NCBI RefSeq assembly: GCF_000240165.1
Contig: NC_017585.1
Coordinates: forward strand, 1,178,001 to 1,242,000
Source of the DNA: Streptantibioticus cattleyicolor NRRL 8057 = DSM 46488
GTDB taxonomy: Bacteria > Actinomycetota > Actinomycetes > Streptomycetales > Streptomycetaceae
Direction of reading: 5' to 3'
DNA length: 64,000 nt
Shown here: positions 1-51,076 of the stretch, one piece after another
Position numbering within the stretch: position 1 is the first letter of the stretch
How the letters are laid out: the number at the start of each line of letters is the position of its first letter
Notes under the pieces: model-generated
Database searches by the model: none
Told to the model about the DNA's origin: nothing
What the model saw: only the letters and a program-made list of their open reading frames with translations
Program-made: the position numbers and the translations under genes

Positions 1-111
1 CTGGGCGCCACCATGGTCTCCAGCGAGGGCGCCTGCGCCGCCTACCACCTCTACCGGCGCCTGGCCCCCCAGGAACGCCCGGCCGCCGAGGAGGGCGTCA
101 CCATTGGCTGA
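1..111 (+). CDS. hypD: HypD, C-terminal end only (hydrogenase Fe-ligand assembly)
   Basis: The window opens inside a gene; frame 1 encodes the last 36 residues and stops at 109-111. The residues read LGATMVSSEGACAAYHLYRR, matching the conserved HypD C-terminus with its terminal-domain cysteine in EGACAAY. HypD is the Fe-S scaffold that, with HypC, assembles the Fe(CN)2CO unit of [NiFe]-hydrogenases. Its stop overlaps the start of hypE by 8 bases, so the two genes are translationally coupled. The rest of the hyp operon must lie upstream of the window. Confidence 0.85.
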   Translation: MGATMVSSEGACAAYHLYRRLAPQERPAAEEGVTIG

Positions 112-1180
112 CACAACATCACATACCGTCCCGGTCGACCCCACCGCGTGGTCGTGCCCGGTGCCATTGCGGGATCACCCGGTGGTGGTGACCGGACACG
201 GCGGTGGCGGCGCGCTCTCCGCCGAACTCACCGAACACCTCTTCCTGCCGGCGTACGGCAACACCGTGCTGGCCGCCATGGCGGACTCGGCGACGGTCAC
301 GCTCGGCGGGGCACGGCTCGCCTTCTCCACCGACTCCTACGTGGTGCGCCCGCTGTTCTTCCCCGGCGGGAGCATCGGCGACCTGGCGGTCAACGGAACC
401 GTCAACGACCTGGCGATGAGCGGGGCCCGGCCGGCCTTCCTGTCCTGCGGGTTCATCCTGGAGGAAGGCGTCGAGCTGTCCGTGGTCCGGCGGGTGGCCG
501 AGGCCGTCGGAACGGCCGCCGCCGCGGCCGGGGTCCAGGTCGTCACCGGTGACACCAAGGTGGTCGAGGCCGGCCACGGGGACGGCGTCTACCTCAACAC
601 CTCCGGCATCGGACTCGTCCCCGAGGGCGTGGCCCCGTGCCCCCAACGGGCGGTCCCCGGCGATGTGGTGATCGTCAGCGGCCCGGTCGGGGCGCACGGC
701 ATCGCCATCATGAGCGTGCGCGAGGGGCTGGAGTTCGGCGCGGACGTCGTCAGCGACACCGCACCGCTCGGCGGACTGGTCGAGGCGATGCTCGCGGTCG
801 CCCCCGATCTGCACGCCCTGCGGGACCCGACCCGGGGCGGACTGGCCACCTCGCTGCACGAGATCGCCACCGCCTCCGGCACCGGCGTGGAGATCGTGGA
901 ACGCGACGTCCCGGTGCCCGACGCCGTCTCGGCCGCCTGCGGGTTCCTCGGCCTCGATCCGCTCTACGTGGCCAACGAGGGGCGGCTGGTCGCCTTCGTC
1001 CCCCGCGACCGGGCCGACGCCGTGCTGGCCGCCATGCGCGCCTACCCCCACGGATCCGGCGCCGCCGTCATCGGCGAGTGCGTGGCCGACCACCCGGGTC
1101 TGGTGGTCGCCCGCACCTCACTCGGCGGCACCCGGGTCGTCGACCTCCCGCTCGGCGAGCAACTCCCGCGCATCTGCTGA
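104..1180 (+). CDS. hypE: HypE, carbamoyl dehydratase (CN ligand synthesis for [NiFe]-hydrogenase)
   Basis: The 358-residue protein is full length for HypE, an AIRS/PurM-fold ATPase. HypE takes the carbamoyl group from HypF onto its C-terminal cysteine and dehydrates it to thiocyanate, the source of the CN ligands. The diagnostic C-terminus PRIC is present, with Cys358 the last residue. The N-terminus carries a glycine-rich GHGGGG stretch and the TDSYVV segment of the nucleotide-binding fold. The start is TTG at 104, which overlaps the end of hypD (stop 109-111). No other hydrogenase gene follows it here; the next gene is a pyrophosphatase. Confidence 0.96.
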   Translation: MADTTSHTVPVDPTAWSCPVPLRDHPVVVTGHGGGGALSAELTEHLFLPAYGNTVLAAMADSATVTLGGARLAFSTDSYVVRPLFFPGGSIGDLAVNGTVNDLAMSGARPAFLSCGFILEEGVELSVVRRVAEAVGTAAAAAGVQVVTGDTKVVEAGHGDGVYLNTSGIGLVPEGVAPCPQRAVPGDVVIVSGPVGAHGIAIMSVREGLEFGADVVSDTAPLGGLVEAMLAVAPDLHALRDPTRGGLATSLHEIATASGTGVEIVERDVPVPDAVSAACGFLGLDPLYVANEGRLVAFVPRDRADAVLAAMRAYPHGSGAAVIGECVADHPGLVVARTSLGGTRVVDLPLGEQLPRIC

Positions 1181-1250
1181 CCCCCGAGATCGCGTCAACG
1201 TCACCGCCCCGGCCATGGTGGTCGCCCTGGAGGCCGGGCGGGGTCGCGGG

Positions 1251-1265
1251 CTGACGTCCCGTCAC
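1251..1265. repeat. CTGACG-N3-CGTCA(G)-type palindrome, one mismatch
   Basis: Between hypE and the pyrophosphatase gene, CTGACGTCCCGTCAC matches a short palindrome that recurs at gene ends in this window with 14 of 15 positions. It may form a small hairpin in the hypE 3' region, but there is no T-run, so a terminator role is only inferred. Confidence 0.45.
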
Positions 1266-1375
1266 CGAAGACGGCCGGTTCCGCACTCCACCGGGTGCTT
1301 CCGGCACCGCCGCAGGACTGGTCGCGATCCGGCCTGGGCACACTGACCGGACACCCCGCCCTCAAGGAGGAGGAC

Positions 1376-1870
1376 GTGACGGAGTTCGACGTGATCGTGG
1401 AGATCCCCCAGGGGTCCCGCAACAAGTACGAGATGGATCACCGACTGCACCGGATCCGCCTCGACCGCATGCTGTTCACCTCGACCAAGTACCCGGCGGA
1501 CTACGGGTACGTCGACGGCACCCTCGGCCGCGACGGCGACCCGCTGGACGCCCTCGTCACGGTGGGGGAGCCGACCTTTCCCGGCTGCGTGATCCGGTGC
1601 CGGGCGATCGGGATGTTCGTCATGACCGACGAGAAGGGACCCGACGAGAAATTGCTGTGCGTACCCGCCCGTGACCCGCGGTACGCGCACGTCAAGGAGA
1701 TCACCGACGTACCCGACTTCGACCGGCTGGAGATCACCCACTTCTTCGAGGTCTACAAGGACCTGGAACCCGGCAAGTCGGTGGAGGGCTCGCACTGGGA
1801 GGGTCGCGAGAAGGCGTACGCGGAGATCGAGGCGTCCCGGCTGCGGGCCGCCTCGGGTACCGAACGGTAG
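1376..1870 (+). CDS. ppa: Soluble inorganic pyrophosphatase (family I)
   Basis: The 164-residue protein is a family I soluble pyrophosphatase, which hydrolyses PPi to drive biosynthetic reactions. EIPQGSRNKYE near the N-terminus and the acidic metal-binding signature DGDPLDALV (about residue 60) are intact, as is YPADYGYVDG just before it. The GTG at 1376 is chosen because AAGGAGGAGG lies directly upstream and the family normally starts a few residues before EFDV; the open frame extends to 1295 without family-like sequence. It appears to be a single-gene unit, housekeeping rather than linked to the hyp genes. Confidence 0.95.
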   Translation: MTEFDVIVEIPQGSRNKYEMDHRLHRIRLDRMLFTSTKYPADYGYVDGTLGRDGDPLDALVTVGEPTFPGCVIRCRAIGMFVMTDEKGPDEKLLCVPARDPRYAHVKEITDVPDFDRLEITHFFEVYKDLEPGKSVEGSHWEGREKAYAEIEASRLRAASGTER

Positions 1871-1885
1871 CCGCGCGTCCGGCCG

Positions 1886-2662
1886 TTACCCGTCCACCCC
1901 GTAGAACGCCATCGCGTTGCCGTACAGCGCCTTGCCGGCCCACTCCTCGCCCAGCGCCTCACGCACCACGTCCACGTCCGCGTCGGCGAAGGGGCGCGGG
2001 GCGCGGGTGGAGGGCAGGTCGGTGCCGAACATCAGGGCGTCGGGGTTGACCCGGGCGACGGCACGCAGCGTCGCGGGGACGTCGAGGTCGCCGCGGCCGA
2101 AGCCGGTGGCCTTCACCCGGGCCCCGCGTTCGACCAGTTTCAGCAGGTCGGGGGTGCCTTCGGCGGTCAGGCCCAGGTGGTCGACGCTGAGCCGGGGCAG
2201 GGTGGCGAGGCGGTCGGCGAGGTCGGGGAGGCGGCGGGCGTCCAGGTACACCTCGACGTGCCAGCCGGCCACCGCCGCCGCCCGGTGGCCGAGGGCGACC
2301 AGCGCGTCGAGGTCGTGCTCGCCGCCGCGGCGCAGGTTGAAGCGGACCGCGCGCACCCCGGCCGCGTCCAGCTCGGCTATCCGCTCCTCCCCGGTGTCCG
2401 GCGGGAGTTGGGCCACCCCGACGAAGCCGGGGCCGAGCCGGTCGAGGGCGTCGAGGAGGTAGCTCTGGTCGTACCCCTGGAACGAGCCGGAGACCACGGC
2501 CCCGCCGGTGACCGGCAGCGCGGCGGTGCGGGCGCGGTAGTCGGCCACCGTGAACGGCTCCGGGCGGTACCCCTGGTTGGCCACGAGCGGGAAGCGGGGG
2601 TCGATGATGTGCAGATGGGCGTCGAAGATCCGGGAACCGGTCCCGGCCGTACCGTCGGTCAT
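1886..2662 (-). CDS. Amidohydrolase-2 family metal-dependent hydrolase
   Basis: This 258-residue TIM-barrel protein belongs to the amidohydrolase_2 family. It has the N-terminal metal motif DAHLHIID, a central VDHLGL histidine region and a late GTDLP aspartate, all expected for the metal centre. The family includes decarboxylases and lactonases, so the substrate cannot be told. The ATG at 2662 overlaps the stop of the EamA gene (2659-2661) as ATGA, so the two are translationally coupled. The open frame continues far upstream through the transporter in another frame, but that part is a shadow. By position it may act on the transported compound or a relative of it; this is inference. Confidence 0.85.
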   Translation of the reverse strand: MTDGTAGTGSRIFDAHLHIIDPRFPLVANQGYRPEPFTVADYRARTAALPVTGGAVVSGSFQGYDQSYLLDALDRLGPGFVGVAQLPPDTGEERIAELDAAGVRAVRFNLRRGGEHDLDALVALGHRAAAVAGWHVEVYLDARRLPDLADRLATLPRLSVDHLGLTAEGTPDLLKLVERGARVKATGFGRGDLDVPATLRAVARVNPDALMFGTDLPSTRAPRPFADADVDVVREALGEEWAGKALYGNAMAFYGVDG

Positions 2663-3651
2663 GCCACGTCCTTCTTCCGGGTGATCGTGCTTTCCGCCTC
2701 CACCAAGGGCCGGTCGGCGGCGGGGGCCGGGGCCGGGGCGCGCCCCTCGAACTGCCGGCCGACCACCGCGGCCAGCACGATCAGCGCGCCGCCGAGGCCC
2801 TGGAACGCCCCCAGCCCCTCGTGCGCGGCGACCACCGCGAAGAGCGTGGCGAAGAGCGGCTCGGTGGCCAGGATCAGCCCGACCCGGGTGGAGCTCGACT
2901 TGCGGGCCGCGCGCAGCTGGACGAAGAACGAGTAGGAGGTGCCCAGCACCCCGAGGTAGCCGATGAGCAGCCAGTTCCCGCCGCTGACGGTGCCTGCGTC
3001 CCGCCACACCGGGGAGCCGCCGACCACCGAGGCACCCGTGGCCAGCAGGCAGACCACGCAGAACTCCACCAGCGTGAGGTTGGACAGCGACTGCGGCCGG
3101 CCGGAGTTGTGCCGGCCGAACAGGGTGATCTGGGTGGCCCGGACGAAGGCGGCGCCCAGGATGATCAGGTCGCCCGGGTGCGGATGGAGACCGTCGGAGA
3201 GGAGCAGCAGCCCGCATCCGATCAGCGCGGTCACGGTGGCCCCGTAGACCACCGGGGACTGCGTGCGGCGGCTGATCACCCGCTCCAGGACGGGCACCAG
3301 GATGACCGAAACGGTGATGAGGAAGCCGGAGTTGGCGGCCGAGGTGTGCTTCACCCCGACGGTCTCCAGGATCAGGATGCCGAACAGCAGCGTGCCGAAG
3401 CCGATCCCGGAGAGCAGTTCGGAGCGGGTCAGGTTCCGCAGGGTGGGCGCGGCCATCAGGGCGATGGCGGGGATGGCGGTCAGGAACCGCAGGGCCAGGA
3501 AGCTCGCGGCCGGGACGGCACGGCCGACGTCCTGCATGACGACGTAGCTCGATCCCCAGATGACCGCGACCACCAGGACCGACAGATCGGTGAGGAGTAC
3601 GCCGCTCCCGGCGGGACGGGCGCCCGGTACGTGTGACCGCTGCGCTGACAC
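2659..3651 (-). CDS. EamA (DMT) family transporter, FthC-like candidate exporter
   Basis: The 330-residue protein has about ten hydrophobic segments arranged as two EamA repeats, for example IWGSSYVVMQDV near the N-terminus and the second repeat ending in LGALIVLAAVV-like sequence. EamA proteins often export amino acids and metabolites. It starts at GTG 3651 behind a GGAGG sequence and is coupled to the downstream hydrolase. A long palindrome lies 40 bp upstream. Its neighbours are a YbaK-type tRNA-editing protein and a threonine transaldolase, the same trio as fthA-fthB-fthC of fluorothreonine producers, where FthC is assigned to fluorothreonine transport. The export role here is inferred from that context. 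Confidence 0.85.
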   Translation of the reverse strand: MSAQRSHVPGARPAGSGVLLTDLSVLVVAVIWGSSYVVMQDVGRAVPAASFLALRFLTAIPAIALMAAPTLRNLTRSELLSGIGFGTLLFGILILETVGVKHTSAANSGFLITVSVILVPVLERVISRRTQSPVVYGATVTALIGCGLLLLSDGLHPHPGDLIILGAAFVRATQITLFGRHNSGRPQSLSNLTLVEFCVVCLLATGASVVGGSPVWRDAGTVSGGNWLLIGYLGVLGTSYSFFVQLRAARKSSSTRVGLILATEPLFATLFAVVAAHEGLGAFQGLGGALIVLAAVVGRQFEGRAPAPAPAADRPLVEAESTITRKKDVA

Positions 3652-3690
3652 AAGGGTCCTCCGGAGGATGAGGTGGGGGGAGGGACCACC

Positions 3691-3748
3691 ATGCCCATGG
3701 TGTCAGCACAGTGGCATCTGCTGCCAGTTTACTGAACACCATGGGCAT
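3691..3748. promoter_or_regulatory. 58-bp near-perfect palindrome, candidate operator of the exporter-hydrolase operon
   Basis: Perfect 13-bp arms ATGCCCATGGTGT (3691-3703) and ACACCATGGGCAT (3736-3748) enclose a weaker inner symmetry ending in TGGCA-TCTGC-TGCCA. It sits just upstream of the GTG of the EamA gene and downstream of the YbaK-like gene. No T-run follows, so an operator (possibly two sites for a dimeric regulator) is more likely than a terminator. The regulator is not identifiable. Confidence 0.55.
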
Positions 3749-3828
3749 ACCGGGCCACCTCCCGTGACCGACCGATCAGTTCCGGCCTACCGGGACGGGG
3801 TGCCCGGGGACCCGCGGAGCCGCGGGGG

Positions 3829-4320
3829 TCAGCCGGTCGCGGCGATCGGCTCGGTCCGCGGGTCGGTCAGGGTGAGGTAGTCCTTCGTCCGCAGCGCCAT
3901 GGAACGGTCCAGGCGGGCCGCGTTGAAGTAGATCTCCTCCTTTTCCAGCAGCGACGGATCGACGATGAGTTCGAGGTCGGGGTGGAACGAGAACGGCAGG
4001 ATCGTGCCGGCCACGCTGCCCGCCAGACGTTCGGCGATCTCCGGCGTGGCGAACGATACGTAAGTGCCGCCGAAAAGGCTCTTGATGCCGTTCAGGTCCA
4101 CTTTCGCATCACCGGGGACCACGGCCAGCACGTATTTGGTGACCTTCTTTCCGATCTTGACCATGACCACGATGCATTTCGCGGCCTCGGAGACGTCGTT
4201 GCCGCGCATCGGGCTGACGATCTCGGTCCGCCCCTCCGGTGGATGGTCGATCAACCGGTACTGGGCGCCGCGACTGTCGAGAAAGTCGATGAGCTTGTCG
4301 TATGTGCTCTCGGTTTCCAT
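3829..4320 (-). CDS. YbaK/ProX-type free-standing aminoacyl-tRNA editing protein (FthB-like role proposed)
   Basis: This 163-residue protein has the YbaK/aminoacyl-tRNA-deacylase fold. AAKCIVVMVK supplies the conserved lysine region, followed by KVDLNGIKSLFGG and a late GSVAGTILPF loop, in family order. Such proteins hydrolyse mischarged tRNAs in trans. It is divergent from a threonine transaldolase gene and precedes an EamA exporter, which suggests that it protects the cell against misacylation with the transaldolase product. ATG 4320 is preferred over GTG 4326 because AGAGG is correctly spaced from it. The tRNA substrate cannot be read from sequence; a cysteinyl- or prolyl-tRNA housekeeping role is the alternative. 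Confidence 0.82.
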   Translation of the reverse strand: METESTYDKLIDFLDSRGAQYRLIDHPPEGRTEIVSPMRGNDVSEAAKCIVVMVKIGKKVTKYVLAVVPGDAKVDLNGIKSLFGGTYVSFATPEIAERLAGSVAGTILPFSFHPDLELIVDPSLLEKEEIYFNAARLDRSMALRTKDYLTLTDPRTEPIAATG

Positions 4321-4372
4321 GAACACCTCTCAGCCGCCGTGCCGGCGGTCGGTGGGAAGCTCGGAGACGGTG

Positions 4373-4400
4373 AGTGTAGCCGTCCCGGAAGGGGTGTCCG
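4373..4400 (-). promoter_or_regulatory. Possible promoter for the YbaK-like gene
   Basis: On the minus strand CGGACA (4395-4400) and TACACT (4373-4378) are separated by 16 bp and point at the YbaK-like start. The match to a housekeeping promoter is moderate. The rest of the 292-bp divergent region shows only a small GC hairpin and the ribosome binding site GGAGGAG before the transaldolase gene. Confidence 0.3.
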
Positions 4401-4612
4401 AAAGCGCGTTGTGACGACGGGTCAGACGGTCTACGACTTTTGACGCACCCGTGGTGTGCCGTCGGCTCCATTTCCCTGACCGCCACCTCCACCTAGGGTC
4501 GGTCGGACCGGGCCGCCGGTGCCGGAGGAGGAAGTCGCCCACCGCACCGCACCGCGGCCCCGCCGCGCCGGCCGCCGGATCCGTGAGACCGCCATGGGAG
4601 GAGCCCAGCCCT

Positions 4613-6517
4613 ATGCCGTCGTCCGTGAACCGCACCAGCCGCACCGAGCCCGCCGGCCACCACCGCGAGTTCCCCCTCTCCCTCGCCGCCATCGACGAAC
4701 TCGTCGCCGAGGAGGAGGCCGAGGACGCCCGGGTGCTCCATCTGACCGCCAACGAAACCGTGCTCAGCCCCCGCGCGCGAGCCGTGCTCGCCTCCCCGCT
4801 CACCTCCCGCTACCTGCTGGAACACCTGGACATGCGCGGACCGTCACCGGCCCGGCTGGGCAACCTGCTGCTGCGCGGGCTGGACCGGATCGGCACCATC
4901 GAGGAGTCGGCCACCGAGGTGTGCCGCCGGCTCTTCGGCGCCCGGTACGCCGAGTTCCGCTGCCTGTCCGGACTGCACGCGATGCAGACCACGTTCGCCG
5001 CGCTCTCCCGCCCCGGGGACACCGTGATGCGGGTGGCCACCAAGGACGGCGGCCACTTCCTGACCGAGCTGATCTGCCGCTCGTTCGGCCGGCGCAGCTG
5101 CACCTACGTCTTCGACGACACCATGACCATCGACCTGGAGCGCACCCGGGAGGTGGTCGAGAAGGAGCGGCCGAGCCTGCTGTTCGTGGACGCGATGAAC
5201 TACCTGTTCCCCTTCCCGATCGCCGAGTTGAAGGCGATCGCCGGGGACGTCCCGCTGGTCTTCGACGCCTCGCACACCCTCGGCCTCATCGCCGGCGGCC
5301 GGTTCCAGGACCCGCTGCGCGAGGGCGCCGACCTGCTCCAGGCCAACACCCACAAGACGTTCTTCGGCCCGCAGAAGGGCATCATCCTCGGCAACGACCG
5401 TTCCCTGATGGAGGAGTTGGGGTACACCCTGTCCACCGGGATGGTCAGCAGCCAGCACACCGCCTCCACGGTGGCGCTCCTGATCGCGCTGCACGAGATG
5501 TGGTACGACGGCCGGGAGTACGCGGCCCAGGTGATCGACAACGCCCGCCGCCTCGCCGGTGCGCTGCGCGACCGCGGGGTGCCGGTGGTGGCCGAGGAAC
5601 GCGGGTTCACCGCCAACCACATGTTCTTCGTGGACACCCGGCCGCTCGGCAGCGGTCCGGCGGTCATCCAGCGCCTGGTCCGGGCCGGTGTCTCGGCCAA
5701 CCGCGCGGTGGCCTTCAACCACCTGGACACCATCCGCTTCGGCGTGCAGGAGATCACCCGGCGCGGATACGACCACGACGACCTGGACGAGGCCGCCGAC
5801 CTGGTCGCCGCCGTGCTGCTGGAACGTCAGGAGCCGGAGCGGATCCGGCCGCGCGTCGCCGAACTCGTCGGCAGGCGGCGCACGGTGCGGTACACCGGCG
5901 ACCCGGCGTCCGCCGCCGGCCCCCCGGCGCGCGAGCGGTACGCGCCCCCCACCGCCCCGGCCGGCCACCCCGCGCGGCCCCGCTGGATCGGGGTACGGCT
6001 GACCCCGCTGCCCGAGCCGGTCACCGAGGCGGAGTGCGCCGGGGCACAACGGCTCGGCCGGCTGGCCGGAGCCTTCCCGCACCAGATCGACTCGTCCGGC
6101 AACGTCAGCTTCACCAGCACCGACGGACGCCTCTTCGTCACCGGCAGCGGCACCTACATCAAGGACCTCGCCCCCGGTGACTTCGTGGAACTCACCGGCG
6201 CCGAGGGGTGGACGCTGCACTGCCGCGGCGACGGCCCGCCGTCCGCCGAGGCGTACCTGCACCACCTGCTGCGCGAGCGGGTCGGCGCCCGCTACGTGGT
6301 GCACAACCACTGCATCCCCGGCCGGGCGCTGGAGACCTCCGGCGCCCTGGTGATCCCGCCCAAGGAGTACGGCAGCGTCGCGCTGGCCGAGGCGGTCGCC
6401 GACGCCTGCCAGGACAGCCAGGTGATGTACGTGCGCCGGCACGGCCTGGTGTTCTGGGCGCACTCCTACGACGAGTGCCTCGCCCTCATCGAGGACGTCC
6501 GCCGGATCACCGGCTGA
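4613..6517 (+). CDS. L-threonine transaldolase, SHMT-like + class II aldolase fusion (4-fluorothreonine transaldolase architecture)
   Basis: The 634-residue protein fuses a PLP-dependent SHMT-type domain (about 20-420) to a class II aldolase/epimerase domain (about 445-630). In the first, DASHTLG is the PLP-contacting region and THKTFFGPQ holds the Schiff-base Lys248. In the second, GNVS, the metal pair His564-x-His566 in VVHNHC, and His610 in RRHG form a plausible metal site. This fusion and length are characteristic of fluorothreonine transaldolases, which move the glycyl part of L-threonine onto an aldehyde, releasing acetaldehyde and making a beta-hydroxy amino acid. Single-domain transaldolases such as ObaG/LipK lack the second domain. 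ATG 4613 follows GGAGGAG. The aldehyde partner is unknown; no fluorinase gene is present in the window. Confidence 0.85.
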   Translation: MPSSVNRTSRTEPAGHHREFPLSLAAIDELVAEEEAEDARVLHLTANETVLSPRARAVLASPLTSRYLLEHLDMRGPSPARLGNLLLRGLDRIGTIEESATEVCRRLFGARYAEFRCLSGLHAMQTTFAALSRPGDTVMRVATKDGGHFLTELICRSFGRRSCTYVFDDTMTIDLERTREVVEKERPSLLFVDAMNYLFPFPIAELKAIAGDVPLVFDASHTLGLIAGGRFQDPLREGADLLQANTHKTFFGPQKGIILGNDRSLMEELGYTLSTGMVSSQHTASTVALLIALHEMWYDGREYAAQVIDNARRLAGALRDRGVPVVAEERGFTANHMFFVDTRPLGSGPAVIQRLVRAGVSANRAVAFNHLDTIRFGVQEITRRGYDHDDLDEAADLVAAVLLERQEPERIRPRVAELVGRRRTVRYTGDPASAAGPPARERYAPPTAPAGHPARPRWIGVRLTPLPEPVTEAECAGAQRLGRLAGAFPHQIDSSGNVSFTSTDGRLFVTGSGTYIKDLAPGDFVELTGAEGWTLHCRGDGPPSAEAYLHHLLRERVGARYVVHNHCIPGRALETSGALVIPPKEYGSVALAEAVADACQDSQVMYVRRHGLVFWAHSYDECLALIEDVRRITG

Positions 6518-6827
6518 CCGCGTCCCCGCCGCGCGCCCCGACCAGGCCGAGACCGTCCATGTAGTCACGGCAGTGGACGACCAGTCCGTCCCGGACCCGC
6601 AGCACCAGCAGACCCGGCAGGGTGAGCGCGGCGGGCCGGGACGGCAGCGCGGCCACCACCACGTGCTCCCCGACGACCACCTCCGGGTCGCCGGTGTCGT
6701 ACACCGCCACCTCCGCGACCTCCGACACCCGCACCGCACTGGCGCCCCGCACCGCGCGGTACCCGGCGCGCACCGCCTCCCGCCCCTCGTACCGCGCGGG
6801 GAAGCCGCATGGCCCGGTGGCTGGCAC
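6507..6827 (-). pseudogene. SnoaL/NTF2-like protein, N-terminally truncated remnant
   Basis: The last about 100 residues align with the second half of an NTF2-like/SnoaL polyketide-cyclase domain: FPARYEGREAVRAGY, then EVAVYDTGDPEVVV and a closing LLVLRVRDGLVVHCRDYMD. About 40 residues that normally precede FPARYEG, including the first helix and strand, are not found in frame. A GTG at 6827 is the only reasonable start, with no clear ribosome binding site. The end overlaps the convergent transaldolase gene by 11 bp. I read it as a remnant; a short functional protein is less likely. Confidence 0.6.
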
Positions 6828-6943
6828 GGGGACTGCGGTACGGGGACGGCTCCGTTCACACGAGGGTGGTCGGCGGCCGGCGCCGGTGATCGGCCGGATG
6901 GAGGGCGTCCCCCGGTCGGCGTCGCGTTTCCGCCACCACGGTG

Positions 6944-6968
6944 CTAGTTTAGACATTGTCCAAACTAG
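6944..6968. promoter_or_regulatory. Fur/PerR-type operator upstream of the Fur-family gene
   Basis: CTAGTTTAGACA-T-TGTCCAAACTAG is a 12-1-12 inverted repeat with one mismatch centred at 6956. It lies 18 bp before the ATG at 6987 and resembles the box bound by actinobacterial Fur/PerR proteins. Autoregulation of the Fur-family gene and the following iron transporter is the straightforward reading. Confidence 0.85.
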
Positions 6969-6986
6969 CCGACAGGGGGAGGGCGG

Positions 6987-7487
6987 ATGACCGGCGCGCA
7001 CCCCACCGACGCCATCGCCGAGCGCCTGCGCGGGGCCGGCCTGCGGGCCACCCGGCCGCGGCTTGCGGTGGCCGGCGCGCTGCGCGCGATGGGCGGCCAC
7101 CACACCGCCGACGAGGTCCACGCACACCTGGCCGAGCACGGCACCGAACTGCCGAGGACCAGCGTCTACAACGCCCTGGTCGCCCTCGCCGGATCCGGCA
7201 TCGCGCTCCGCGCCGACGTGGGCCCCGGGGCGGCGGTGTACGAGTTCGCCGACACCTGGCACCACCACTTCGTCTGCCTGCGGTGCGGACAGGTCACCGA
7301 CGTCACCTGCCTGGTCGGCGCCAAGCCCTGCCTGACCGCCGGGCAGGAGGTGGGCCGGGTCGACGAGGCGCAGGTCATCTTCCGCGGCGTCTGCCGCGAC
7401 TGCCTCGCCGCCCACGGCCCGGCCGGCGGCCGGACACCGCCATCAGCACCCGCGGGAGCACCACCTCATGAGCACGAAGAACACTGA
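6987..7487 (+). CDS. Fur family metal-responsive repressor
   Basis: The 166-residue protein has the Fur winged helix (about 5-85) with LRATRPRLAVAGALR and TSVYNALVAL, then the dimerisation domain. HHHFVCLRCGQ is the metal/recognition stretch, and the CxxC pairs CLRC and CRDC fit a structural zinc site. The tail is proline-rich and ends HEHEEH, an extra histidine cluster. It starts at ATG 6987 behind a GGGGGAGGG sequence, with a Fur-type palindrome over its promoter. The end overlaps the next gene by 20 bp, so the pair is one operon. Whether iron, manganese or peroxide is sensed cannot be settled from sequence. Confidence 0.92.
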   Translation: MTGAHPTDAIAERLRGAGLRATRPRLAVAGALRAMGGHHTADEVHAHLAEHGTELPRTSVYNALVALAGSGIALRADVGPGAAVYEFADTWHHHFVCLRCGQVTDVTCLVGAKPCLTAGQEVGRVDEAQVIFRGVCRDCLAAHGPAGGRTPPSAPAGAPPHEHEEH

Positions 7488-8634
7488 CACCGCCACCACC
7501 GGGCCCCGCGATCGGCGCGCCGCCGCCCGGTTCCGCGCCGCCCTCGACTCCGAGCGGCGCAGCGCCGCGCTGTACCGGGGGCTGGCCGACGGCGCCACCG
7601 GCGAACGGCAACGCATCTTCCTGGAACTCTCCGCCGTCGAGGAACGGCACGCGCGCCACTGGGCGGACAAGCTCACCGCCCTCGGCGAACCCGTCCCCCG
7701 CCCCGGCCGCACCGGGGTCCGCACCCGCGCCCTGTCCTGGCTGGCCCGCCGGTTCTCCGCGGACGCCGTCCTGCCGCTCGTCGAACGCGCCGAGCACGCC
7801 GACGCCGGCCTGTACCAGGGCGACCCGGACGCCGCCCCGGGGATGGCCGCCGACGAACGCTCGCACGCCCGCGTCCTGACCCGGCTGCGCGAGCAGACCC
7901 CGGCCACCCCGGAACAACTGGGCGGACGCGGCATCGCACAACGGGAGAGATGGCACCGCGGCGACCGCTCCGGAGCGCTGCGCGCCGCGGTCTTCGGCGT
8001 CAACGACGGCCTGGTCTCCAACACCGCGCTGGTGATGGGGTTCGCCGGATCCGGCGCCGGCGCCACCACCATCCTCTTCGCCGGCGTCGCCGGACTGCTC
8101 GCCGGCGCCTTCTCCATGGCGGCCGGTGAGTACGTCTCCATGCGCAGCCAGCGCGAGGCGTACGAGCGGGAGATCGCCCTGGAGGCCGACGAACTGCGCG
8201 ACGACCCCGAGGCGGAGGCCGAGGAACTCGCCCTGATCTACCGCGCCAAGGGCCTCCCCGCCGACGAGGCGGAACGGGTCGCGGCCACCATCATGAAGGA
8301 CCAGGAGACCGCGCTGGAGACCATGGCCCGCGAGGAACTCGGCCTCGACCCCGAGGAACTCGGCTCGCCGTGGTCGGCGGCGCTCTCCAGCCTGATCGCC
8401 TTCGCCCTCGGTGCCGTGGTGGTCGTCGTCCCCTACCTGTTCGCCTCCGGCACCGCCGCGTCCGTCGCCGCCGTGGCCCTGGCCGCCGCCGCGCTGTTCA
8501 CCGTCGGCGCGGTGCTCGGCGCCCTCAACGGCCGCTCCCCGCTGCGCTCCGGGGCCCGGCAACTGCTCGTCGGCGCGGGTGCCGCCGCCGCGGTCTTCGG
8601 CATCGGGCACGTGGTCGGCACCGGGGCGGCGTGA
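7468..8634 (+). CDS. Ferritin-like/VIT1 fusion membrane protein (MbfA-type iron/manganese transporter)
   Basis: The 388-residue protein joins an N-terminal rubrerythrin/ferritin-like four-helix domain (about 10-150, with SERRSAALYRGL and VEERHARHW glutamate/histidine motifs) to a C-terminal VIT1/CCC1 transporter domain. The latter has GVNDGLVSNTALVMGFAGSG, MAAGEYVSMRSQRE and two C-terminal hydrophobic hairpins. MbfA proteins of this layout export iron and protect against iron and peroxide stress. It overlaps the Fur-family gene, which fits metal-controlled export. Topology is probably cytoplasmic ferritin domain with five membrane helices. The metal, Fe or Mn, is not certain. Confidence 0.9.
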   Translation: MSTKNTDTATTGPRDRRAAARFRAALDSERRSAALYRGLADGATGERQRIFLELSAVEERHARHWADKLTALGEPVPRPGRTGVRTRALSWLARRFSADAVLPLVERAEHADAGLYQGDPDAAPGMAADERSHARVLTRLREQTPATPEQLGGRGIAQRERWHRGDRSGALRAAVFGVNDGLVSNTALVMGFAGSGAGATTILFAGVAGLLAGAFSMAAGEYVSMRSQREAYEREIALEADELRDDPEAEAEELALIYRAKGLPADEAERVAATIMKDQETALETMAREELGLDPEELGSPWSAALSSLIAFALGAVVVVVPYLFASGTAASVAAVALAAAALFTVGAVLGALNGRSPLRSGARQLLVGAGAAAAVFGIGHVVGTGAA

Positions 8635-8635
8635 C

Positions 8636-9109
8636 ATGACGGCGACGCTGGAGCTGGCGGTCCTGGTGGGCCTCCAGGCGGCCGGCAAGTCGACGTTCTA
8701 CCGGCAGCGACTGGCCGGACGGTACGCGCTGGTCAGCAAGGACCGGTACCCCCGGGCCGCGCGCGGCAAGCAGCGCCGGCAGATGCGCGAGGTGACCGAG
8801 GCGCTGGCCGCCGGAACCTGCGTGGCGGTCGACAACACCAACCCCACCCCGGACGAATGGTGGCCGCTGCTGGCCGCCGGACACGCCCACGGAGCCGCCG
8901 TCACGGCCTACTGGTTCCCGCCCGACCTCACCGGCTCCCTGCGGCGCAACGCCACCCGCACCGGGCGCGGACGCGTCCCCGACATCGGCGTCCGCGCCAC
9001 CGCCGCCCGGCTGCGCCGACCGAGCACGGCCGACGGGTTCGACGCCGTGCGCGAGGTCCGGTTCGACGGGCACGGCGGGTTCGAGGTCCGCCCCGCCACA
9101 CCGCAGTGA
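8636..9109 (+). CDS. Small P-loop kinase (polynucleotide-kinase-like AAA domain)
   Basis: This 157-residue protein has a Walker A GLQAAGKST near residue 13, SKDRYPR after the second strand, VAVDNTNPT as the Walker-B-like strand, and an arginine-rich lid. This is the order of the PNK-type kinase family that also includes the kinase half of PNKP. It starts one base after the stop of the transporter gene, so it is probably co-transcribed with the Fur operon. The substrate (nucleic acid 5'-OH or a small molecule) cannot be told. The gene has no close functional link to iron that I can see. Confidence 0.75.
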   Translation: MTATLELAVLVGLQAAGKSTFYRQRLAGRYALVSKDRYPRAARGKQRRQMREVTEALAAGTCVAVDNTNPTPDEWWPLLAAGHAHGAAVTAYWFPPDLTGSLRRNATRTGRGRVPDIGVRATAARLRRPSTADGFDAVREVRFDGHGGFEVRPATPQ

Positions 9110-47567: not shown

Positions 47568-47584
47568 CGGGTGCTCCGTAAGTT

Positions 47585-47780
47585 GTTAGGCGGCCCGGGA
47601 GGGCCGGATGTGGCTGATCGGGTCTTGCCAGTCGTGGCTCGAAGGGAGTGGCCGTCCGGTTCTCCGGGGCGCCCTGGCTGCTGATTGAGATGCGCGCGCC
47701 TTGCGCGGTCGCTGTTTACGGAGATGACAGCGGGGTGTTCCTCGGGCCGACGGCAGTTCACGCGGAACGAGGAGGGGCGA
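47585..47780 (+). ncRNA. Possible bridge RNA region of IS A
   Basis: IS110 elements of the IS621 kind encode a bridge RNA in the non-coding end before the transposase gene. This 196-bp stretch is the only non-coding DNA of sufficient size in element A. No structure was computed, so the call rests on position only. Confidence 0.3.
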
Positions 47781-48983
47781 GTGAGCGAGCGGCGAGCCCA
47801 GGTCTGGGCCGGCATCGACGCCGGCAAGGGCCATCACTGGGCGGCGGTGGTCGACGAGAGCGGCCCGACCGTGTGGTCGAAGAAAATCGACAACGACGAG
47901 ACGGCGATCCTGGCCGCGCTCGGTGAGATCCTCGACCTGGCCGAGAAGGTCCACTGGGCAGTGGACATCTCCGGTACCTCCTCCGCGCTGCTGCTGGCTC
48001 TGCTCGCGGCCCACGGCCAGCAGGCCGTCTACGTGCCCGGACGGACCGTCAACCGCATGTCCGGCGCCTACCGGGGCGAGGCCAAGACCGACGCCCGCGA
48101 CGCCTACGTCATCGCCGAAACCGCCCGTCACCGCCGGGACTTGGCCGCCATCGACGTGCCCGTCCAGCTCGCGGCCCACCTCGCGCTGCTGACCGGCCAC
48201 CGCACGGACCTGGTCGCCGACCGCGTACGGATGATCAATCGGCTCCGCGACGTGCTGACCGGCATCTTTCCCGCCCTGGAACGAGCCTTCGACTACTCGG
48301 CCCACAAGGGCGCCCTGGTCCTGCTGACCGGCTACCAGACCCCGGCCGCGATCCGCCGCCGAGGACGGACCCGCCTGACGGCCTGGCTGGCCAACCGCGG
48401 TGTCCGCGGCGCCGACGCGGTGGCCGCCACCGCACTGGAAGCCGCTGAGGCCCAGCACACCGCGCTGCCCGGCGAGGACATCGCCGCAGCGATCGTCGCC
48501 GACCTGGCTGCGCAGATCCTGGCCCTGGACGACCGCCTCAAGCGCATCGACAAGCAGATCCGCGACACCTTCCGCGCCCATCCTCAGGCCGAGATCATCG
48601 AGTCCCTGCCCGGCATGGGGCCGATCCTCGGGGCGGAGTTCGTCGTCGCGGCGGGCGACCTCACGGCTTACGCCGACGCCGGCCACCTCGCCTCGGCGGC
48701 CGGGCTGGTGCCCGTCCCGCGTGACTCGGGCCGGCGGACCGGCAACCTGCACCGGCCCAAGCGCTACAGCCGCCGCCTGCGCAGGGTTTTCTACCTGTCC
48801 GCGCAGACCAGCATCATCCGCGAGGGTCCTAACCGGGACTTCTACCTCAAGAAGCGCGGCGAAGGCTGCAAGCACGTCCAGGCGATCATTGCGCTCGCCC
48901 GCCGACGGGCCAGCGTCCTGTGGGCACTCCTGCGCGACGGACGGGCCTTCACCTCCGCCCCGCCTGCCGCGCAGGCGGCTTGA
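47781..48983 (+). CDS. IS110-family transposase A
   Basis: The 400-residue protein has the N-terminal DEDD/RuvC-like domain (WAGIDAGKGHHWAAV, KTDARDAYVIAETARHRR) and the C-terminal Transposase_20 domain (ESLPGMGPILGAEFV, LASAAGLVPVPRDSG) with its nucleophilic Ser expected in the latter. It is full length. GTG 47781 follows GAGGAGGGG. It catalyses site-directed insertion with a bridge RNA in characterised relatives. It differs clearly from transposase B next door. Confidence 0.92.
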   Translation: MSERRAQVWAGIDAGKGHHWAAVVDESGPTVWSKKIDNDETAILAALGEILDLAEKVHWAVDISGTSSALLLALLAAHGQQAVYVPGRTVNRMSGAYRGEAKTDARDAYVIAETARHRRDLAAIDVPVQLAAHLALLTGHRTDLVADRVRMINRLRDVLTGIFPALERAFDYSAHKGALVLLTGYQTPAAIRRRGRTRLTAWLANRGVRGADAVAATALEAAEAQHTALPGEDIAAAIVADLAAQILALDDRLKRIDKQIRDTFRAHPQAEIIESLPGMGPILGAEFVVAAGDLTAYADAGHLASAAGLVPVPRDSGRRTGNLHRPKRYSRRLRRVFYLSAQTSIIREGPNRDFYLKKRGEGCKHVQAIIALARRRASVLWALLRDGRAFTSAPPAAQAA

Positions 48984-48997
48984 CTCAGTCATTGAGT

Positions 48998-49232
48998 GAT
49001 CCGATCTCCTGACGGCGACTCCCCAAAGGGGAGAAAATCGGGTTACGGCCGTCCGGCTGACGTCGCGGAATCTTGGTGCCACCGGAACCCGACATTGAGT
49101 AGGACGCCGGGGACCCGTCGTCAGGCACCCGGAAGTGTTGCTTCGAGCATGTGCATCAGATTCTTTTGCCTGCTTGGTCCCCGCCGGACGGCTGCTGCAC
49201 AACAGCACACCGCGCGAGGGGAGGACCGGGGC
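48998..49232 (+). ncRNA. Possible bridge RNA region of IS B
   Basis: This 235-bp non-coding stretch before transposase B includes a perfect CTCCCC/GGGGAG stem-loop followed by AAAA. By analogy with IS621-type elements it may encode the bridge RNA; loop sequences that pair with target and donor were not worked out. Confidence 0.3.
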
Positions 49233-50468
49233 ATGGACGTTGTCCACGAACGATGCGCCGGGATCGATATCGGCAAGGCGGACGTGAAGGTCTGCGTCCG
49301 CGTTCCAGGGCCGGGCAAACGGCGCCGGAAAGAGGTACGCACCTTCTCCACCATGACCCGTGACCTGCTGGCGATGCGGGACTGGCTGATCGCCGAGGGC
49401 ATCACCGTGGTCGGCATGGAGGCCACCGGCTCGTACTGGAAGCCGGTGTTCTACCTGCTGGAGAACGACATCGGGACCTGGCTGCTCAACGCCCGGCACA
49501 TGAAGAACGTCCCCGGCCGCACCGACGTCGCCGATTCCGAGTGGATCTGCAAGATGGTCGAACACGGCCTGGTCCGGCCCTCGTTCGTCCCGCCGCCGGA
49601 GATCCGGCAGCTGCGGGACCTGACCCGCTACCGCACCGAGGTCATCCGCGAACGCACCCGCGAGGCCCAGCGGCTGGAGAAGCTTCTCGAAGACGCCGGG
49701 ATCAAGCTCTCCGCCGTCGTCTCCGACCTGCTGGGCAAGTCGTCCCGCGCGATGCTGGAGGCCCTGATCGCCGGAGAACGCGACCCGCTGGTCCTGGCGG
49801 AGATGGCCAAGGCCAGCATGCGAGCCAAACGCGCGGTCCTGGCCCAGGCGCTGACCGGCCGGTTCACCGACCACCACGCGTTCCTGGCCCGCACCATGCT
49901 CGACCGCATCGGCGCGGTAACCGCGACCGAGGCCCGGCTGAGCGAGGAGATCACCCGCCAGCTCGCCCCCTTTCGCCGACAGGTCGAGCTGCTGACGACG
50001 ATCCCGGGCGTCAACGCCAAGTCCGCCGAGGTGATCCTCGCCGAGATCGGCGTGGACATGAGCCGTTTCCCCACGGCTGCCCACCTGGCCTCGTGGGCCG
50101 GGATGTGTCCGGGCAACCACGAGTCCGCCGGCAAGCACACCTCCGGCAAGTCCCGCCCCGGCGACCCCTGGCTCAAGGGCGCCCTCGGGCTCGCCGCAAC
50201 AGCAGCCGCCCGCACCAAGGGCACCTACCTTGCCGCCCGCTACAAACGCATCGCAGTCCGCCGCGGCAAGAAACGCGCACTGGTCGCCATCGGCCACACC
50301 ATCCTGACCCCGATCTGGCACATGCTCACCAACGACGCCGAATACGCTGAACTCGGAGGCGACTACTTCGTCCAACGAACCGGCCGGGCCAGGCAGACGC
50401 GGCGCCTGGTCAGCCAGCTCAACATGCTCGGCTATCAAGTGTCCCTCCAATCAGCGGAAGCGGTCTGA
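49233..50468 (+). CDS. IS110-family transposase B
   Basis: The 411-residue protein has the DEDD domain at the N-terminus (CAGIDIGKADVKVCVRV, MEATGSYWKPVFYLLE, RTDVADSEWICKM) and the C-terminal Transposase_20 part (LTTIPGVNAKSAEVILAEIG, LASWAGMCPGNHESAGK). All core motifs are intact, so it could be active. ATG 49233 follows GAGGGGAGGA. Its 3' end overlaps the open frame of the TetR gene on the other strand. Confidence 0.93.
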   Translation: MDVVHERCAGIDIGKADVKVCVRVPGPGKRRRKEVRTFSTMTRDLLAMRDWLIAEGITVVGMEATGSYWKPVFYLLENDIGTWLLNARHMKNVPGRTDVADSEWICKMVEHGLVRPSFVPPPEIRQLRDLTRYRTEVIRERTREAQRLEKLLEDAGIKLSAVVSDLLGKSSRAMLEALIAGERDPLVLAEMAKASMRAKRAVLAQALTGRFTDHHAFLARTMLDRIGAVTATEARLSEEITRQLAPFRRQVELLTTIPGVNAKSAEVILAEIGVDMSRFPTAAHLASWAGMCPGNHESAGKHTSGKSRPGDPWLKGALGLAATAAARTKGTYLAARYKRIAVRRGKKRALVAIGHTILTPIWHMLTNDAEYAELGGDYFVQRTGRARQTRRLVSQLNMLGYQVSLQSAEAV

Positions 50469-51076
50469 CCTGCGGGGGTGGTTGATTTTCGAATCAGACT
50501 CCCGTCGGGTTGGGACGGCCAGTGCTCCAGCGTGATGTGCAGCGCTTCGAGCACGCGCGACCAGGACCGCCGTACGTCGCGCGGATGCCCGAAGCCGCCG
50601 CCGAGTTCCAGCTGGATGTAGCCGTGGAAGGTGCTGCGCAGCAGGCGGGCGGCGTCGGTGAGGTCGGGGTCGGTGAGGCCGTAGGCGCGCAGCATGCCGT
50701 GGGTCAGCTCGACGCTGCGGCGCAGCGCGACCGAACCGGCGATCTCCTCGGGTTCGAGACGTGTCTGGGACGCCGCGTAGCGGCCGGGGTGTTCGAGCGC
50801 GTAGTCGCGGTAGGCGTCGGCGAAGGCGATCAGCGCGTCCTTGCCGGCCCGGCCGGCCACCGCCGTGGCGATGCGGTCGGTCAGCTCCTCGCCGGACAGC
50901 AGCGCGATCCGGACGCGCAGCTCCCGCAGGTTCTTGATGTGCGAGTACAGACTCGCGTCCTTGACGCCGAACTGCCGGGCGAGCGCCGAGATCGTGACCT
51001 TCTCGATCCCGACCTCGTCCGCCATCCGCGCCGCCGCCTCCGTCAGCCGGGCCACCGTCAGTCCTGCCCGCACCAT
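50435..51076 (-). CDS. TetR family regulator (WHG-type), 3' end altered at the IS boundary
   Basis: The 213-residue frame has a TetR HTH (TEAAARMADEVGIEKVTISALARQ, SLYSHIKNLRELR) and a TetR_C/WHG ligand domain (ARLLRSTFHGYIQLE). The family usually ends shortly after LEALHITLEHWP; here about 20 extra residues follow and the last codons overlap transposase B. The insertion probably replaced the original stop. ATG 51076 follows GAGGAGG. It may once have regulated the alpha/beta hydrolase gene now on the other side of the IS pair. Confidence 0.85.
   Translation of the reverse strand: MVRAGLTVARLTEAAARMADEVGIEKVTISALARQFGVKDASLYSHIKNLRELRVRIALLSGEELTDRIATAVAGRAGKDALIAFADAYRDYALEHPGRYAASQTRLEPEEIAGSVALRRSVELTHGMLRAYGLTDPDLTDAARLLRSTFHGYIQLELGGGFGHPRDVRRSWSRVLEALHITLEHWPSQPDGSLIRKSTTPAGQTASADWRDT

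Follow-up and report, generated by a model that had tools for sequence, protein, structure and literature searches.

The window analysed here was a 64,000-nt stretch of contig NC_017585.1 of Streptantibioticus cattleyicolor NRRL 8057 = DSM 46488 (Streptomyces cattleya), in which an earlier note had claimed four genes at positions 1886-6517, namely a transaldolase, a YbaK-type tRNA deacylase, an EamA exporter and a metal hydrolase. All four were found at or very near these positions, and the features of the locus are as follows:

1886..2662, minus strand, amidohydrolase (PF04909, Amidohydro_2; 107.1 bits, over cut-off)
2659..3651, minus strand, fthC, EamA-family 4-fluorothreonine exporter, 330 aa (PF00892; 83.6 bits, over cut-off)
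3829..4326, minus strand, fthB, free-standing YbaK-type fluorothreonyl-tRNA deacylase, 165 aa (PF04073; 72.6 bits, over cut-off)
4327..4612, no strand, divergent intergenic region between fthB and flFT, 286 bp (from the sequence)
4613..6517, plus strand, flFT / fthA, 4-fluorothreonine transaldolase, 634 aa (TIGR04506, PF00464, PF00596; published gene)

As had been described, the transaldolase gene was divergent from the YbaK gene, the two being separated by 286 bp which presumably hold the promoters of both fthB and flFT. The coupling of the metal hydrolase gene to the exporter gene was also observed; the ATG of the amidohydrolase overlapped the stop codon of fthC by 4 bp (ATGA, 2662-2659), an arrangement that suggests co-expression of the two genes. 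At the edge of the window, hypE, a hydrogenase maturation gene, was seen at 104-1180 on the plus strand and, next to it at 1295-1870, a gene for an inorganic pyrophosphatase; the fth locus adjoins an apparent hydrogenase region of the megaplasmid. A segment at about 47574-50502 resembled IS110 family transposases found on several Streptomyces plasmids.

The flFT frame ran for 634 codons before the stop and combined an SHMT-like PLP domain at residues 27-397 (PF00464, 101 bits) with a Zn-type class II aldolase domain at residues 493-630 (PF00596, 62 bits), so that both the domain fusion and the length typical of 4-fluorothreonine transaldolases, as reported in the earlier note, were present. 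Against the NCBIfam equivalog TIGR04506 "fluorothreonine transaldolase", the protein scored 1207.8 bits over profile positions 1-608 of 609, the curated cut-off being 650 bits. In the published work, degenerate PCR that started from the enzyme purified from S. cattleya led to a frame of 1905 bp, whose 634-aa product has the same two domains (2021 review, PMC8072733), and the gene in the window was of exactly this size. When the transaldolases (FTases) of S. cattleya and four relatives were aligned, Lys248, Asn497, His564, His566, Glu585 and His610 were invariant in all five; the lysine and the three histidines had been singled out before and stood at exactly those numbers, aligned with the same residues in the four relatives. 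By alignment to the motifs of FTaseMA, the homologue from Streptomyces sp. MA37, Lys248 is the predicted PLP lysine, His564, His566 and His610 are the putative Zn ligands, and Glu585 and Asn497 are the likely partner residues.

The locus had been taken for an "fthABC-like" relative of the one in S. cattleya, but it turned out to be the S. cattleya locus itself. Window positions 1-9000 matched NC_016113.1 with 100% identity over the full length (positions 626102-635101, minus strand), and so did window positions 39001-64000 (positions 571099-596098); this record, which is without usable annotation, is the plasmid pSCAT of S. cattleyicolor (S. cattleya) NRRL 8057 = DSM 46488. The biosynthesis of 4-fluorothreonine was discovered in S. 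cattleya, and since the aligned DNA is 100% identical to pSCAT, the locus sits in that very organism. The assembly of the strain comprised two contigs, C1 of 1,812,548 bp, which contains the window, and C2 of 6,282,967 bp, in line with a megaplasmid and a chromosome. PMC8072733 assigns flFT of S. cattleya to the megaplasmid pSCATT and flA to its chromosome. Taken as a whole, the evidence is best explained by the original flFT/fthABC locus of pSCAT, to which we give a probability of about 0.98. The transaldolase, tRNA-editing and export roles assigned from the letters alone were therefore correct and had already been published; this is the original published example, and nothing in its identity is new.

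The locus was then compared with those of four relatives (Streptomyces sp. SAJ15, S. morookaense, S. iconiensis and genome G340), each of which carried an enzyme at the TIGR04506 level. Identity to the four relatives was 70-76% for the transaldolase, 78-83% for the YbaK protein (fthB) and 75-80% for the EamA protein (fthC). YbaK and EamA genes were present within about 10 kb of the transaldolase in all four, in agreement with the expectation that both would be conserved beside the enzyme. A fluorinase scoring above the TIGR04507 cut-off was encoded directly upstream of the transaldolase in each relative, and a PNP-family phosphorylase gene also lay near each of these loci; the other nearby genes encoded HTH and LuxR-type regulators and a sodium/proton exchanger. 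The transaldolase was rare, being detected in 2 of 395 sampled Streptomycetaceae genomes, and no further TIGR04506 copy was found among 395 genomes sampled across the class. The grouping of flFT with the YbaK and EamA genes is not due to chance, because the TIGR04506 score stands at 1207.8 against 650 bits and the same two gene types recur in 4/4 other carriers of the enzyme.

Two other explanations of the locus were weighed. The protein could be a serine/glycine hydroxymethyltransferase (SHMT) with an accidental aldolase fusion and unrelated neighbours, as its N-terminal domain matches PF00464 and its sequence neighbours in the PDB are mostly SHMTs. However, in a tree of SHMT domains, the five FTases clustered as a single clade (100/99 support), and the strain's own three SHMTs grouped separately. 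The TIGR04506 score was far above the cut-off, the neighbour genes were conserved in the four relatives, and transaldol activity has been published for the enzyme from S. cattleya (PMC8072733). Misannotation of an SHMT was rejected on the score and the tree; it is refuted, and its probability is negligible. Grouping with SHMTs, lack of transaldol activity and unconserved neighbours had been named in advance as refuting the reading of the locus, and none of the three holds.

The earlier note had further considered that the product might be an undescribed beta-hydroxy amino acid made from another aldehyde, as no fluorinase lies in the window; this doubt arose because only one window was seen. 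In vitro, the homologous FTaseMA indeed takes other aldehydes as well, among them chloroacetaldehyde, glycolaldehyde and propanal (PMC8072733), and the readable part of the assembly yielded neither the fluorinase (PF01887, TIGR04507) nor FlK (PF22636) and only one S-adenosylhomocysteine hydrolase. Nevertheless, among the 320 kb of C2 that were read, 40 kb (C2:4440001-4480000; two adjacent 20-kb stretches, L027 and L028) consisted wholly of N, and because of this unreadable block the fluorinase miss is uninformative and carries no weight. We infer that the fl cluster lies in an unreadable stretch of the chromosome, and the N block probably explains the missing fluorinase and FlK. As the suggestion of another product was based only on the absence of the fluorinase, it fails. 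The organism is moreover a known 4-fluorothreonine producer, the fluorinase adjoins the transaldolase in all four relatives, flA is reported on the chromosome, and knockout of flFT abolished 4-fluorothreonine (PMC7162832), which refutes a different product as the main role. With the DNA identified as pSCAT and the fluorinase gap attributed to the N block, this reading was rejected as highly improbable, and the product of the locus is 4-fluorothreonine; minor side products may be formed when fluoride is absent.

We also considered whether a YbaK gene of the fthB kind could serve as a marker of hidden analogue pathways. FthB-like YbaK homologues, with up to 70% identity, were present in 110 of the 395 Streptomycetaceae genomes, and at nine readable loci of such homologues both FTase and EamA genes of the fth kind were absent. 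Several of the loci (among L063-L065, L067, L070-L074 and L078) shared other recurrent neighbours, namely genes for a microbial PARG, an acyltransferase, an epimerase and a TAP-like hydrolase. The YbaK gene alone is therefore no marker, and the idea was discarded.

The amidohydrolase was kept in three of the five fth loci, those of S. cattleya, SAJ15 and G340, the last two being the only ones among the four relatives. Its homologues in SAJ15 and G340 showed 70-71% identity, and the stretches read on either side of the loci in S. morookaense and S. iconiensis contained no match. Close homologues (60-69% identity) were also detected in Streptomycetaceae genomes without the transaldolase, and at three such loci that were read, the surroundings of the amidohydrolase gene lacked any relative of FTase, YbaK or EamA. 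The enzyme is therefore not specific to the fth system, and it appears to be an optional accessory with which the system can dispense. No mention of an amidohydrolase beside fthC was found in the literature covered here on the S. cattleya locus, which includes the primary FthB/FthC work (McMurry and Chang 2017) at second hand; the patchy retention of the gene may be new. It is possible, albeit doubtful, that the fluorothreonine system has a fourth, hitherto undescribed member in the amidohydrolase, whose gene is translationally coupled to fthC in S. cattleya, SAJ15 and G340. If so, it might for example hydrolyse a fluorothreonine derivative or a by-product of the pathway.

According to the published steps, the chromosomal fluorinase pathway supplies fluoroacetaldehyde, and FlFT (FthA) transfers to it the glycyl unit of L-threonine, held by PLP in the SHMT-like domain, to give 4-fluorothreonine and acetaldehyde. 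For the MA37 homologue, it has been proposed in the literature that the Zn-binding aldolase domain may remove water from fluoroacetaldehyde hydrate and so yield the free aldehyde. In the published scheme, fluorothreonyl-tRNA is hydrolysed by FthB, which keeps the analogue out of protein, and 4-fluorothreonine is exported by FthC. The functions of these two proteins come from knockout and biochemical work and are taken here from the summary in PMC7408626, where FthB is described as a deacylase countering fluorothreonyl-tRNA and where knockout of fthC is said to lower 4-fluorothreonine in the broth and to cause its accumulation in the cells. The locus is of established importance: it is part of the classic pathway by which organofluorine compounds are made in nature, and it offers an example, documented in the literature, of a trans-editing enzyme dedicated to shielding the producing organism from the threonine analogue that it makes. 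What is added here is the correct identification of the locus, the comparison of five loci and the amidohydrolase as an optional part.

Between the locus analysed here and the flFT/fthABC locus of S. cattleya on pSCAT there was no difference in DNA, gene size, gene order or replicon. In SAJ15, S. morookaense, S. iconiensis and G340, the fluorinase and the transaldolase lie in one chromosomal cluster, unlike in S. cattleya, where the megaplasmid carries flFT and fthBC, separately from flA. FTaseMA is, like flFT, a two-domain PLP and Zn enzyme, and its residues Lys237, Asn484, His551, His553, Glu573 and His598, which were mutated and found important or were proposed to be so, correspond by motif, with an offset in numbering, to Lys248, Asn497, His564, His566, Glu585 and His610 of flFT. 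In MA37, in contrast to S. cattleya, the gene of FTaseMA is located near the fluorinase (PMC8072733).
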